This document shows positions 13,378 through 19,124 of a DNA stretch of 64,000 bases, in pieces. Position 1 is the stretch's first letter. Every line of letters begins with the position of its first letter. Both the position numbers and the translations under genes were made by a program. The stretch comes from Pseudomonadota bacterium. Its GTDB lineage: Bacteria > Pseudomonadota > Gammaproteobacteria > Burkholderiales > Rhodocyclaceae. The notes beneath the pieces were generated by a model. That model did no database searches. It had not been told where the DNA came from and saw only the letters and a list, made by a program, of their open reading frames with translations. Location: positions 25,579-89,578 of the forward strand of contig QQUN01000050.1 in the NCBI GenBank assembly GCA_008501585.1, read 5' to 3'.

Positions 13378-15159
13378 TCAGTGACCGGTTGCAGCGCCTG
13401 CACCGCGCGGCGTGCGGATGTCTTCCACCAGGTGCTGGATATGTTCCGGGCACGGGGCAGTGACTTTCGACACGATGAAGGCCACGGCCATGTTCAGGAC
13501 CGCGCCAACCGAACCGATACCTTCCGGCGAGATGCCGAACAGCCAGTTCGCCGGGATGTTCTCCGCCATCGGCGTAATGAAGATCCCCTTGAAGTACAGG
13601 ATGTAGCAGAAGGTGAAGATCAGGCCCGTCAGCATGCCGGCGATCGCGCCTTCCTTGTTCATCGTCTTGGAGAAGATCCCCAGGAGGATGGTCGGGAACA
13701 GCGAGGCGCAGGCCAGACCGAAGGCGAAGGCCACCACCTGGGCCACGAAGCCCGGCGGGTTGTAGCCGAGGTAACCGGCCACGCACACTGCCACCGCCGC
13801 GGCCAGACGGCCGGCCAGCAGTTCGGCCTTCTCGGACAGATCCGGCGTCAGGATGCCCTTCATCAGGTCATGCGAGATGGCGGCGGAGATCACCAGCAGC
13901 AGACCGGCTGCGGTCGACAGTGCGGCAGCGATACCACCGGCGGCCACCAGGGCGATCACCCAGTCGGGCAGCTTGGCGATTTCCGGGTTGGCCAGCACCA
14001 TGATGTCGCGGTCAACCGTCAGCTCGTTGCCTTTCCAGCCAGCCGCTTCGGCCTTGGCCATGAAGTCGGCGTCCTTGGACTTGTCGTTGTAGTACTGGAT
14101 GCGGCCGTCGCCGTTCTTGTCTTCGAACTTGATCAGCTTGGTTGCTTCCCAGCGCTTCATCCAGTCCGGACGGGCTTCGTAGCTCAGCGCCGATTCCGGT
14201 GCGAACACCTCGCCGCTCAGCACGCCCGGGGTCACCGTGGAGTGCAGGTTGTAGCGGGCCATGGCGCCAACGGCCGGTGCCGTGGTGTAGAGGATGGAGA
14301 TGAACACCAGCGCCCAGCCAGCGGACGAACGGGCGTCCTTGACCTTCGGCACGGTGAAGAAGCGCACGATCACGTGGGGCAGACCGGCAGTACCGGCCAT
14401 CAGCGCGAAGGTGATGGCAATGACGTCGATATACGACTTGTTGCCCGAGGTGTATTCCTGGAAGCCCAGGTCATGCACCACCATGTCGAGTTTGGCCAGG
14501 AACGGCTCGCCCGAGGCCACCGACCCGCCCAGACCCAGTTGCGGGAAGACGTTGCCGGTCAGGTTCAGCGAAATGAAGATCGCCGGCACCATGTAGGCGA
14601 AGATCAGCACGCAGTACTGCGCCACCTGGGTGTAGGTCACGCCCTTCATGCCGCCGAGCACGGCGTAGAAGAACACCAGACCCATACCGACGAGCAGACC
14701 GGTGACGATATCGACCTCCAGGAAGCGGGAGAACACGATACCGACGCCACGCATCTGGCCGGCCACGTAGGTGAAGGAGATGAAGATCAGGCAGATCACC
14801 GCCACCAGACGCGCACCGTTCGAGTAATAACGGTCGCCGATGAACTGCGGCACGGTGAACTTGCCGAACTTGCGAAGGTAGGGGGCGAGCAGCACGGCGA
14901 GCAGCACATAGCCGCCGGTCCAGCCCATCAGGTACACCGAGCCACCGTAGCCAAGGAAGGCGATCAGGCCGGCCATGGAGATGAAGGACGCAGCGGACAT
15001 CCAGTCAGCGGCCGTTGCCATGCCGTTGACCACCGGGTGCACACCGCCGCCGGCGACGTAGAAGTCGCTGGTGCTGCCGGCGCGGGCCCAGATCGCCACC
15101 CCGATGTAGAGCGCGAAGGACAGGCCGACGACGATAAAGGTAAGCGTTTTAAGATCCAT
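13378..15159 (-). CDS. Sodium:solute symporter large subunit (ActP/VC_2705-type)
   Basis: 593 aa with many TM segments; SSS-family features (STSDFYVAGGGVHPVVNGMATAADWMSAASFISMAG), preceded by a DUF4212 small subunit. Confidence 0.88.
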   Translation of the reverse strand: MDLKTLTFIVVGLSFALYIGVAIWARAGSTSDFYVAGGGVHPVVNGMATAADWMSAASFISMAGLIAFLGYGGSVYLMGWTGGYVLLAVLLAPYLRKFGKFTVPQFIGDRYYSNGARLVAVICLIFISFTYVAGQMRGVGIVFSRFLEVDIVTGLLVGMGLVFFYAVLGGMKGVTYTQVAQYCVLIFAYMVPAIFISLNLTGNVFPQLGLGGSVASGEPFLAKLDMVVHDLGFQEYTSGNKSYIDVIAITFALMAGTAGLPHVIVRFFTVPKVKDARSSAGWALVFISILYTTAPAVGAMARYNLHSTVTPGVLSGEVFAPESALSYEARPDWMKRWEATKLIKFEDKNGDGRIQYYNDKSKDADFMAKAEAAGWKGNELTVDRDIMVLANPEIAKLPDWVIALVAAGGIAAALSTAAGLLLVISAAISHDLMKGILTPDLSEKAELLAGRLAAAVAVCVAGYLGYNPPGFVAQVVAFAFGLACASLFPTILLGIFSKTMNKEGAIAGMLTGLIFTFCYILYFKGIFITPMAENIPANWLFGISPEGIGSVGAVLNMAVAFIVSKVTAPCPEHIQHLVEDIRTPRGAGAATGH

Positions 15160-15171
15160 CTCTCGTACCCC

Positions 15172-15438
15172 TTAGTCTTCGTGAACGTCGTGATCGCGGT
15201 CGATCTTGTTCATGCGAGCCGCGTACCAGAAGATCAGGATCAAAAATGCGTAGATCGAGCCTTGCTGGGCAAACCAGAAGCCCAGCGGATAGCCGCCCAG
15301 GTGGATGCTGTCGAGCGCCGGCTGCAGAATGATGCCGAAGCCGAACGACACGACGAACCACAGGACGAGGATTACCGTCAGCAACCCGAGGGTTGCCTTC
15401 CAGTAAGCGTCGCCTGATTTCTTATCAGGGGATGTCAT
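15172..15438 (-). CDS. DUF4212 family sodium/substrate symporter small subunit
   Basis: 88 aa: YWKATLGLLTVILVLWFVVSFGFGIILQPALDSIHLGGYPLGFWFAQQGSIYAFLILIFWYAARMNKIDRDHDVHED, directly upstream of the symporter. Confidence 0.9.
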   Translation of the reverse strand: MTSPDKKSGDAYWKATLGLLTVILVLWFVVSFGFGIILQPALDSIHLGGYPLGFWFAQQGSIYAFLILIFWYAARMNKIDRDHDVHED

Positions 15439-15623: not shown

Positions 15624-16256
15624 ATGTCCGACGACTGTCATCACGCCCCCGCGCCGCGCCGCGGCATCGGCATCGCCCGCGAGGGTGACTTCGACCCCGT
15701 CGCCTTCGAAAAGGCCGTCGGCGATCTGCTGCGCGCCTGCGGCGTCTCGACGGACGGCCCGCACACCGGCCGCACCGTCCAGCGCGTGCGCGAACTGTGG
15801 CAAAAACGCCTGCTCGGCGGCTACGAACTCGACCCCGCCGATGCGCTTGGCGACGGCTTCGACGACCCGCGCCGCGACATGGTCGTGGTGCGCGGCATCG
15901 CGGTGCACGGCATCTGCCCGCACCACCTCGTCCCCTTCCGCGGGGTGGCCCATGTGGCCTACCTGCCCGGCGGGCGCCTGCACGGCTTTGGCCGCATCGC
16001 ACGCATGGTCGATGCCATCGGCCACCGCTTCACCTATCAAGAGTGGATGACCCGCGACATCGCCGAGGTGCTGGTCCGGCACGGCCAGGCCGCCGGCGCC
16101 GCCTGCCTGATCGAGGCCGAACAACTGTGCCTGCTGCTGGGCGAAGACCGCCGCGGCGACGAACGCGTCATCACCCAGGCCTTTGCCGGCAGTTTCGAGA
16201 CCGACCTGCAGGCCCGTAACGAATTCCTGCGTGCCATCGGCCCAAGCGCCCTCTGA
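15624..16256 (+). CDS. Divergent GTP cyclohydrolase I (FolE)-like protein
   Basis: CPHHLVPFRGVAHVAYLPGGRLHGFGRIARMVDAIGHRFTYQEWMTRDIAEVL...EAEQLCLL aligns by eye with FolE zinc/active-site segments; several conserved residues altered. Confidence 0.8.
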   Translation: MSDDCHHAPAPRRGIGIAREGDFDPVAFEKAVGDLLRACGVSTDGPHTGRTVQRVRELWQKRLLGGYELDPADALGDGFDDPRRDMVVVRGIAVHGICPHHLVPFRGVAHVAYLPGGRLHGFGRIARMVDAIGHRFTYQEWMTRDIAEVLVRHGQAAGAACLIEAEQLCLLLGEDRRGDERVITQAFAGSFETDLQARNEFLRAIGPSAL

Positions 16257-16264
16257 CCCCAACC

Positions 16265-17467
16265 ATGCGCCCCCTTCGGCCCGCCGCCGTCCTGCTGGCC
16301 CTTCTCGTGCTGGCCGGCTGCCAGAGCACCCCTTACGAGTCGCGGCCCTCGCCCAGCCTGCCGCCCGAGGTCACCCTGCCGGGCCAGCCAAGCCCGGCGC
16401 CGGTCATCAGCGCCCCCTCGGTTCCGATCACGCCCACGCCGACGCCACCGATGCCGGCCGCAAGCCGCCAGGCCATCGACCTCCTGCCCGGTGGCATCGC
16501 CGACCGCGCCGGCTGGGCGCGCGACATCGACACCGCGCTCGACCACCTCGGCATCCCCCGCAGCGCCGACAACCTCTGCGCCGCCATGGCGGTGATCGAA
16601 CAGGAGTCCACCTGGCAGGCCGACCCGGTCGTGGCCGGCCTGCCGCGCATCGTGCGCCGCGAGATCGACAGCCGCGCCAAACGCTACGGCATTCCCCAGG
16701 TGGTGGTCAGCGCCGCGCTCGAAAAGACCTCGCCCGACGGGCGAAGCTACGCCAAACGCATCGCCGCGCTGCGCACCGAAAAGCAGATGAACACCCTGTT
16801 CGAGGACATGCTCTCCGAACTGCCGCTGGGCAAGACCCTGCTCTCCGGCTTCAACCCCATCCGCACCGGCGGCCCCATGCAGGTCAGTATCGCCTTCGCC
16901 GAAGACCACCTCGACCGCCGCCGCTACCCCTACCCGCGCAGCGGCAGCGTGCGCCATGAGGTATTCACCCGCCGCGGCGGCCTGTACTTCGGCATCGCCA
17001 ACCTGCTCGACTACCCTGCCGACTACCCGCACCCGCGCTACCGCTTCGCCGACTTCAATGCCGGCCGGTACAGCAGCCGCAACGCCGCCTTCCAGGCCGC
17101 CATCAGCCGCGTCTCGGGCCGCAAGCTCGCCCCCGATGGCGACCTCCTGCGCTATCGCGGCAGCACCCCGAGCAGCGATGTCAGCGCCACCGAAGCCGCC
17201 CTGCGCACCCTCGCCGGCCGCCTGCACCTGAGCACGCGCCAGATCCGCGACGACCTTGAACACGAAAAATCGGCCGATTTCAGCCACACCCGCCTCTACG
17301 GCCGCCTCTGGCAACTGGCCGAGCGCCAGGCCGGGCGCGCCCTGCCGCGCGAGCAGATGCCCGACATCCTGCTCCAGAGCCCGAAAATCCAGCGCAAACT
17401 CACCACCGCCTGGTTCGCCAAGCGTGTCGAGTGGCGCTACGACCGCTGCCTGGCACGCGAGCGCTGA
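16265..17467 (+). CDS. DUF1615 family lipoprotein
   Basis: MRPLRPAAVLLALLVLAGCQSTPYESRP lipobox; VIEQESTWQADPVVAGLPRIVRREIDSRAKRYGIPQVVVSAAL typical of DUF1615. Confidence 0.75.
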   Translation: MRPLRPAAVLLALLVLAGCQSTPYESRPSPSLPPEVTLPGQPSPAPVISAPSVPITPTPTPPMPAASRQAIDLLPGGIADRAGWARDIDTALDHLGIPRSADNLCAAMAVIEQESTWQADPVVAGLPRIVRREIDSRAKRYGIPQVVVSAALEKTSPDGRSYAKRIAALRTEKQMNTLFEDMLSELPLGKTLLSGFNPIRTGGPMQVSIAFAEDHLDRRRYPYPRSGSVRHEVFTRRGGLYFGIANLLDYPADYPHPRYRFADFNAGRYSSRNAAFQAAISRVSGRKLAPDGDLLRYRGSTPSSDVSATEAALRTLAGRLHLSTRQIRDDLEHEKSADFSHTRLYGRLWQLAERQAGRALPREQMPDILLQSPKIQRKLTTAWFAKRVEWRYDRCLARER

Positions 17468-18372
17468 TGCAACTGTTCTACGCCGACCACTTCGTCCTGC
17501 CGCTGCCACCCGGGCACCGCTTCCCGATGGCCAAGTACAGCCGCCTGCGCGAACGCCTGATGGCCAGCGGGCAGTTCGAGGCGACCGATTTCTGCGTGCC
17601 CGAGGCCGCCGACGACACCGCCCTGCTGCGCGCCCACAGCGCCGACTATCTCCAGCGGGTGGTCAACGGCACGCTGACCGAGGCCGAGCAACGGCGCATC
17701 GGCTTTCCGTGGACGCCCGAGATGGTCGAGCGCTCGCGTCGCTCGGCCGGCGCCACGCTGGCCGCCTGCCGCAGTGCGCTCGACGCCCGCTGCGCGGCCA
17801 ATATGGCGGGCGGCACCCACCACGCGCATCGTGACTTCGGTTCCGGCTTCTGTGTATTCAATGACGCCGCCGTGGCCGCGCTGGCCATGCGCGCCGAAGG
17901 CCGCGCCGGGCGGATCGCCATCATCGACTGCGACGTGCACCAGGGCGACGGCACCGCCGCCATCCTGGCCGGCACGCCCGAGGTGTTCACGCTCAGCCTG
18001 CACGGCGACAAGAACTTCCCGTTCCGCAAGACCGTCTCCGACCGCGACATCGCCCTGCCCGACGGCACCGGCGACGCCGACTATCTGGCCGCCCTCGTCC
18101 CGGCGCTTGACCATGTGTTCACCCACTTCCGGCCCGAGCTGGTGATTTATCTTGCCGGCGCCGACCCCTTCGAGGGCGACCGCCTCGGCCGCCTGTCCCT
18201 GAGCTTCGATGGCCTCGCCCAACGCGACGCCCTGGTGCTCGGCATGTGCCGCAGCCTGCGCATTCCCGTTGCCATCGCCATGGCCGGTGGCTATGGTCAT
18301 GACATCGACGACACCGTCGCCATCCACGCCACCACCCTACTCACAGCCGCCCGGCTGTTCCGGAGCCCCTGA
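17467..18372 (+). CDS. Histone deacetylase-like (arginase/deacetylase superfamily) protein
   Basis: GGTHHAHRDFGSGFCVFNDAAVAAL...IAIIDCDVHQGDGTAAILAGTPEVFTLSLHGDKNFPF...YLAGADPFEGDRLGRLSLSFDGLAQRD. Confidence 0.92.
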   Translation: MQLFYADHFVLPLPPGHRFPMAKYSRLRERLMASGQFEATDFCVPEAADDTALLRAHSADYLQRVVNGTLTEAEQRRIGFPWTPEMVERSRRSAGATLAACRSALDARCAANMAGGTHHAHRDFGSGFCVFNDAAVAALAMRAEGRAGRIAIIDCDVHQGDGTAAILAGTPEVFTLSLHGDKNFPFRKTVSDRDIALPDGTGDADYLAALVPALDHVFTHFRPELVIYLAGADPFEGDRLGRLSLSFDGLAQRDALVLGMCRSLRIPVAIAMAGGYGHDIDDTVAIHATTLLTAARLFRSP

Positions 18373-19124
18373 TGCAAGAAGAATCCCGTATCGCGCTGTT
18401 GATCGACGCCGACAACTGCCCCGCCAGCAAGATCGAACTGATGCTCGACGAGCTGGCCAAGTACGGCGTCACCAACATCCGCCGCGCCTACGGCAACTGG
18501 AAGAGCCCCAGCCTCAATGGCTGGGCCGACAAGGTGCATGAGTTCGCCATCCAGCCGGTGCAGCAGTTCGCCTACACCAAGGGCAAGAACGCCACCGACT
18601 CGGCCATGATCATCGACGCCATGGACCTGCTCTACACCCAGCGCCTCGACGGCTTCTGCCTGGCCTCGTCCGATTCCGACTTCACCCCGCTGGTGATGCG
18701 CATCCGCGCCAATGGCCTCAAGGTCTATGGCTTCGGCGAAAAAAAGACGCCGATGCCCTTCGTCAATGCCTGCTCGCGCTTTCTCTACCTCGAAAACCTG
18801 ATCACCGAATCCCCCGACGACGCGGCCGCCCCTTCGGCCAAGCCCGAGCGCGTCAGCGGCAAGGCCCTGCGCGGCGACTCGCGCATCACCAGCCTGCTGC
18901 GCAACGCGGTCGAAGCCTGCGTCGGCGAGGAAGACAGCTGGGCCAGCCTGTCTTCGGTCGGCTCGCACATCAGCAACCAGACCCCGTTCGACCCGCGCAA
19001 CTACGGCTACAAGAAACTCGGCGACCTGATCGAAGCCACCGGCCTGTTCGACACCGAACGGCGCGGCAGCCACCTCTACCTGCGCGACAAGCGCAGCAAG
19101 GGCAAGGGCAGCGCCGCCGCGTGA
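18372..19124 (+). CDS. NYN (LabA-like PIN) domain protein with C-terminal OST-HTH/LOTUS domain
   Basis: IALLIDADNCPASKIELMLDELAKYGVTNIRRAYGNW...SDSDFTPLVMRIRANGLKVYGFGEKKTPMPFVNACSRFLYLENL, then a LOTUS-like SSVGSHISNQTPFDPRNYGYKKLGDLIEATGLFDTERRGSHLYLRDKR. Confidence 0.88.
   Translation: MQEESRIALLIDADNCPASKIELMLDELAKYGVTNIRRAYGNWKSPSLNGWADKVHEFAIQPVQQFAYTKGKNATDSAMIIDAMDLLYTQRLDGFCLASSDSDFTPLVMRIRANGLKVYGFGEKKTPMPFVNACSRFLYLENLITESPDDAAAPSAKPERVSGKALRGDSRITSLLRNAVEACVGEEDSWASLSSVGSHISNQTPFDPRNYGYKKLGDLIEATGLFDTERRGSHLYLRDKRSKGKGSAAA

Follow-up and report, generated by a model that had tools for sequence, protein, structure and literature searches.

The window, meaning the whole 64,000-nucleotide stretch of DNA that was analysed, carries at positions 15624-16256 of its plus strand an open and complete reading frame for a FolE-like protein of 210 residues, hereafter FolEx. 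The only Pfam family matched by this protein is PF01227 (E 5.6e-48, residues 29-205, above the family cut-off), and its top PDB match by sequence is the M. tuberculosis FolE 11yz (E 9.1e-29). An AlphaFold2 model, built from a 55-row alignment and with a mean pLDDT of 92.8, predicts a fold that superposes on M. tuberculosis FolE 9p8z with TM scores of 0.84 and 0.93 (by query and target length, respectively) and an rmsd of 1.4 Å over 187 columns. FolEx is thus a member of the PF01227 homologous superfamily by sequence and by fold. The same superfamily includes QueF (preQ1 synthase), which has a related fold; FolEx, however, keeps the FolE zinc ligands and has no NCBIfam QueF match, whereas three other FolE proteins weakly match QueF-II. 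The window genome lies near Denitromonas, the name borne by the closest FolEx loci among the best 80 of 344 relatives, and it groups with nine genomes of the same genus.

FolEx was described in the preliminary description as the start of a tightly packed gene run, and the packing is confirmed. The run downstream comprises a DUF1615 gene, a histone-deacetylase-family gene (17467-18372), an NYN/OST-HTH gene, one unassigned protein and an NAD(P)H-hydrate epimerase/dehydratase, a repair enzyme. The NYN/OST-HTH gene (18372-19124, plus strand), which adjoins the histone-deacetylase-family gene, encodes an NYN nuclease-like domain fused to an OST-HTH/LOTUS domain. On the other side, a sodium:solute symporter gene and a small DUF4212 gene (13378-15438, minus strand) are divergent from FolEx. 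No sigma-70-like promoter was found upstream of FolEx by a consensus scan, and the window contains no riboswitch or other known RNA at the Rfam gathering thresholds. Across 80 FolEx loci the neighbours vary from genus to genus and the run is not conserved beyond the genus and its close relatives, so FolEx looks like a stand-alone gene, and a functional operon with the downstream run is unsupported. The same 80 loci hold no conserved neighbour that points to a pathway or a substrate. A partnership with a formamidase of the S. meliloti BrbF type (PMC9478397) was also considered and rejected: creatininase-family genes occur in 7 of 61 relatives, only two of which carry FolEx.

Active-site residues of FolEx

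The roles of the FolE residues have been described for the T. thermophilus enzyme, whose numbering equals that of E. coli FolE minus about 2 (PMC4005822). In that enzyme, C108, H111 and C179 ligate the zinc, guanine N1/N2 is bound by E150 (the E152 equivalent), the 2′- and 3′-OH of the ribose are bound by S133, and the phosphates are bound by K134, R137, R183 and R64 (PMC4005822). H177 (= His179) protonates N7, and H110 (= His112) works at the ribose and possibly also in C8/N9 cleavage (PMC4005822). In the human enzyme, the β and γ phosphates are coordinated by R216 (PMC7750480). Replacement of His179 was reported to abolish activity (PMC4005822), while the title of a 1999 study by Bracher, cited in PMC7750480, states that His179 mutants form the formylamino intermediate. 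The literature on these mutants is, as far as that title goes, split between loss of activity and formation of the formylamino compound.

A multiple alignment of 112 distinct FolEx orthologues with 46 other FolE proteins was read in the numbering of E. coli FolE, which is identical to PDB 1fbx. The codons at 15915-15926 encode C98-P99-H100-H101, corresponding to E. coli C110-E111-H112-H113, and each of the four residues is found in 112/112 orthologues. The zinc ligands C98 and H101 and the catalytic H100 are thereby kept, and Glu111 is replaced by Pro. The third zinc ligand, C181 in E. coli, is kept as C169 (16128-16130), so that all three FolE zinc ligands (C110, H113 and C181) occur in every FolEx sequence. 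The preliminary description had already read the CPHH zinc site and the later Cys as retained, which the alignment bears out.

The catalytic His179 is occupied in FolEx by Q167 (codon CAA, 16122-16124), as the preliminary description had claimed from the single sequence. The motif around Q167 aligns to E. coli FolE without gaps, both by phmmer and in the multiple alignment. Gln is found at this position in 112/112 FolEx orthologues vs. His in 45/45 other FolE proteins, one further row having no residue there; a chance change, a sequencing error or a strain mutation is ruled out by this invariance.

Around the substrate site, the guanine-recognition pair Q151-E152 is kept as Q139-E140 (16038-16043; 112/112 FolEx, 46/46 others), and the phosphate-contact R139 as R127 (16002-16004; 112/112). 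In contrast, S135-K136, present in 46/46 other FolE proteins, reads G123-R124 (15990-15995; Gly in 111/112 and Arg in 112/112), so that the ribose-contact Ser is lost and the phosphate-contact Lys becomes Arg. R185-G186, where R and G stand in 45/45 other FolE proteins, is replaced by G173-E174 in 112/112 (16140-16145), which opens a subfamily-specific loop, GEDRRGDER. We take R185 to be human R216 by the usual offset. Both segment changes noted earlier, GLSKINR to GFGRIAR (S135G, K136R) and the loss of CVKARG, now CLLLGE (R185 to G173), hold up in this comparison. Q149T is also fixed in FolEx (112/112), and K68 is mostly Glu, otherwise Thr, Asp or Gln. The ribose/phosphate contact set of FolE is thus incomplete in FolEx, with S135G, K136R and R185G changed and R139 and R65 kept. 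The residues kept in all FolEx sequences are C110, H112, H113, C181, R65, R139, Q151 and E152. In light of the published residue roles, the zinc that activates water and the pair that recognises the base are retained in FolEx, and the groups at N7, at the ribose and in part of the phosphate site are altered.

New residues have become fixed as well. H120 (15981-15983), at the position of E. coli I132, is His in 112/112 FolEx orthologues vs. Val, Leu, Ile or Phe in the other FolE proteins, and is a possible new active-site group. The FolEx-specific invariant polar residues include, besides H120 and the loop GEDRRGDER, H47, W59, R62, R106, W141, D145 and C161, and T137 and Y138 are further new invariant residues; R176/R177 are also invariant. 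The loss of one catalytic His might suggest that FolEx is a non-catalytic ligand sensor or regulator with a FolE fold. However, none of the 112 sequences departs from the three zinc ligands, H112, Q151 or E152, which is unusual for a dead enzyme, and this is the least probable of the explanations weighed here. FolEx is probably still a zinc-dependent enzyme acting on a guanine/pterin-type ligand.

An old, constrained clade and its automatic name

All FolEx rows fall into a single clade with a support of 100/100, on a stem that is long relative to the spread within the clade, although the length of that stem is an approximation and long branches were flagged. Identity within FolEx is at least 66%, and 108 of the 210 positions are at least 98% conserved. 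Scores against the FolEx profile are bimodal in 200 genomes of the order and 399 of the phylum, at least 379 bits for FolEx vs. at most 139 for all other FolE proteins. Of the 399 phylum genomes, no more than two had a gene scoring as FolEx: the genome from which the window comes and another from its order. In the genomes examined, FolEx was seen only in Betaproteobacteria, the named carriers among the best 80 of 344 confirmed relatives including Denitromonas, Thauera, Azoarcus, Accumulibacter, Propionivibrio, Sulfuritalea, Sterolibacterium, Thiobacillus and Sulfuriferula. FolEx is under purifying selection, with dN/dS between orthologues of 0.03-0.25 by a simple estimate in which synonymous sites are partly saturated; these values and the invariant zinc site rule out a decaying gene. 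Plasmid carriage was not seen, the FolE-like matches on plasmids all having less than 60% identity. A search of the open literature found no paper on the FolEx subfamily and no biochemical data on any member.

Set beside FolE (GCYH-IA, PF01227, COG0302), FolEx is alike in its fold (TM 0.93 for the model), zinc ligands, H112, Q151/E152, R65 and R139. It is unlike FolE in that His179 is Gln, Ser135 is Gly, Lys136 is Arg, Glu111 is Pro and Arg185-Gly186 is Gly-Glu, and in its identity of at most 41% to any other FolE seen. Two NCBIfam subfamily models under the name GTP cyclohydrolase I FolE accept FolEx, but it scores below both folE equivalog cut-offs, with 103.9 of 181.6 bits for TIGR00063 and 70.3 of 202 bits for NF006824; it has Gln where the catalytic His179 of a FolE equivalog is expected. 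As controls for TIGR00063, E. coli FolE and three other non-FolEx FolE proteins pass (4/5). A divergent FolE that has the His (L031) also fails both cut-offs, and thus failure of the equivalog models is not diagnostic by itself. Since the subfamily models are passed and both equivalog models failed, the automatic name FolE/GTP cyclohydrolase I is probably wrong for FolEx.

Folate and riboflavin genes in the carriers

A search for a canonical folE or folE2 elsewhere in the window genome found FolE2 (GCYH-IB, PF02649) at G000:C41:15558-16310. This genome has no PF01227 gene besides FolEx. FolE2 is also present in 22/22 FolEx carriers of the relatives set and in 22/23 carriers of the order sample, the one carrier without it being a 67% complete assembly. 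Some carriers contain a second, non-FolEx FolE (G021 and G026 among the relatives, five in the order sample). Because nearly all carriers have FolE2, folate synthesis need not rely on FolEx: the conversion of GTP to dihydroneopterin triphosphate can be supplied by FolE2, the expected maker of this compound, which is a separate gene of a separate Pfam family. The single clade with its fixed active-site swaps, the FolE2 in nearly every carrier and the failure of both equivalog models give good support to the functionally divergent paralogue put forward in the preliminary description.

These observations also bear on whether FolEx could still work as an ordinary GTP cyclohydrolase I, the loss of His179 and Arg185 being made good by the Gln and the rearranged loop. 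The intact zinc site, H112, Q151, E152, R139 and fold, together with the NCBIfam FolE subfamily cut-offs that are passed, are what such an enzyme would have. Nevertheless, the His is kept in all other FolE proteins examined, its loss is reported, in part by title, to stop or abolish the reaction, and the carriers also have FolE2 and some of them a second FolE, which leaves this explanation improbable. FolEx is likely not a functional GTP cyclohydrolase I.

The first step of riboflavin synthesis was considered in the same genomes. Matches to PF00925 form two groups, canonical RibA with 172 bits or more and a weaker one with no more than 153 bits, and the RibA zinc cysteines are absent from 19/19 aligned RibBX C-terminal domains, all of the weaker group. 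Canonical RibA is absent from 139/200 genomes of the order, although nearly all genomes checked have riboflavin synthase and a rib operon: riboflavin synthase was found in 59/61 relatives, and ribBX and ribH are adjacent in all 12 genomes inspected, in most of which ribE lies next to them. FolE2 is present in 133 of the 139 RibA-less genomes (Fisher p 8e-14, uncorrected for kinship). The window genome has a canonical RibA (63% identical to that of E. coli) as well as RibBX, at G000:C15:38554-39042 and G000:C24:27482-27949 (L179, L178). An archaeal-type GTP cyclohydrolase III was rejected as the cause of the RibA gap, as PF05165 has no match in any of the 200 order genomes.

It was therefore weighed whether FolEx replaces GTP cyclohydrolase II (RibA), opening and deformylating GTP for riboflavin in carriers that have RibBX only. 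Canonical RibA is absent from 22/23 carriers of the order sample (Fisher p 0.003, uncorrected for kinship), the aligned RibBX proteins are without the RibA zinc cysteines and yet ribE, ribBX and ribH stand together, and the residues kept and lost in FolEx would fit ring opening without the Amadori rearrangement. However, 117 order genomes, several of them in the same family, have neither RibA nor FolEx, suggesting a more general explanation for RibA loss, and the window genome has canonical RibA plus FolEx. On these two grounds the replacement is ranked low, as quite improbable; a general replacement is weakened by the 117 genomes, and FolEx as a RibA replacement is weakly supported at best. 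FolEx itself matches PF01227 and not PF00925, the domain that carries the RCDCG zinc motif of RibA.

The reaction proposed for FolEx

The explanation favoured here, with a probability of roughly 45%, is that FolEx, fixed in a wide range of Betaproteobacteria, is a neofunctionalised FolE paralogue that acts on a guanine-type ring and stops short of the full GTP cyclohydrolase I reaction. The pattern of a kept zinc site and guanine-binding Glu with a lost N7-protonating His and ribose Ser fits ring opening. In the proposed mechanism, FolEx would bind a guanine-type ring beside the zinc-bound hydroxide, which may attack C8 and so open the imidazole. The ribose (Amadori) rearrangement and the ring closure should then fail for lack of the His and the Ser, and the product would be a ring-opened formamidopyrimidine, with or without its formyl group. 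The formylamino product suggested in the preliminary description would be one form of this outcome. A halt at the ring-opened stage is plausible, and ring opening as the specific reaction is put forward tentatively, with somewhat less confidence than the favoured explanation as a whole. The inferred chemistry is of the same kind as that of RibA (PF00925) and archaeal GTP cyclohydrolase III (PF05165), namely imidazole opening without a pterin; unlike FolEx, these enzymes belong to other Pfam families, and most carriers have no canonical RibA.

As ribose and phosphate contacts are changed (S135G, R185G, K68E), the substrate of FolEx is uncertain, and the natural one may depart from GTP in its sugar or phosphate part. 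GTP may still bind, since three of the four phosphate contacts known from published work (R65, position 136 as Arg, and R139) are still basic, and the invariant R176/R177 could substitute for R185. A related explanation, less probable than the favoured one, is that FolEx is a FolE-fold enzyme for another guanine- or pterin-type substrate and catalyses a reaction that is not simply the opening of the GTP ring; such a substrate may be, for example, a nucleoside, a nucleoside mono- or diphosphate, a deoxynucleotide, a damaged guanine nucleotide or a reduced pterin. The guanine/pterin recognition residues are kept while the ribose-contact Ser and one phosphate Arg are lost, H120, T137, Y138, W141 and the loop GEDRRGDER are newly invariant, and FolE2 can supply the GTP reaction, all of which would suit a changed substrate. 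However, R65, R139 and the Lys-to-Arg change at 136 leave basic residues in place, and the gene context indicates no candidate substrate.

Returning to the neofunctionalised paralogue, its most far-reaching form would be a new tunnelling-fold GTP/guanine-nucleotide cyclohydrolase that goes no further than imidazole opening and might supply riboflavin synthesis, or another pathway derived from a formamidopyrimidine, in Betaproteobacteria with no recognisable RibA; we regard this as unlikely. Independently of that pathway, the whole clade would be named GTP cyclohydrolase I automatically, though that reaction should not occur. The classic His179 mutants made in the laboratory have in FolEx a counterpart from nature, so that the residues which set ring opening apart from pterin formation can be tested directly. 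An unrecognised guanine/pterin step may also come to light through FolEx, in bacteria that often do without riboflavin's GTP-opening enzyme.
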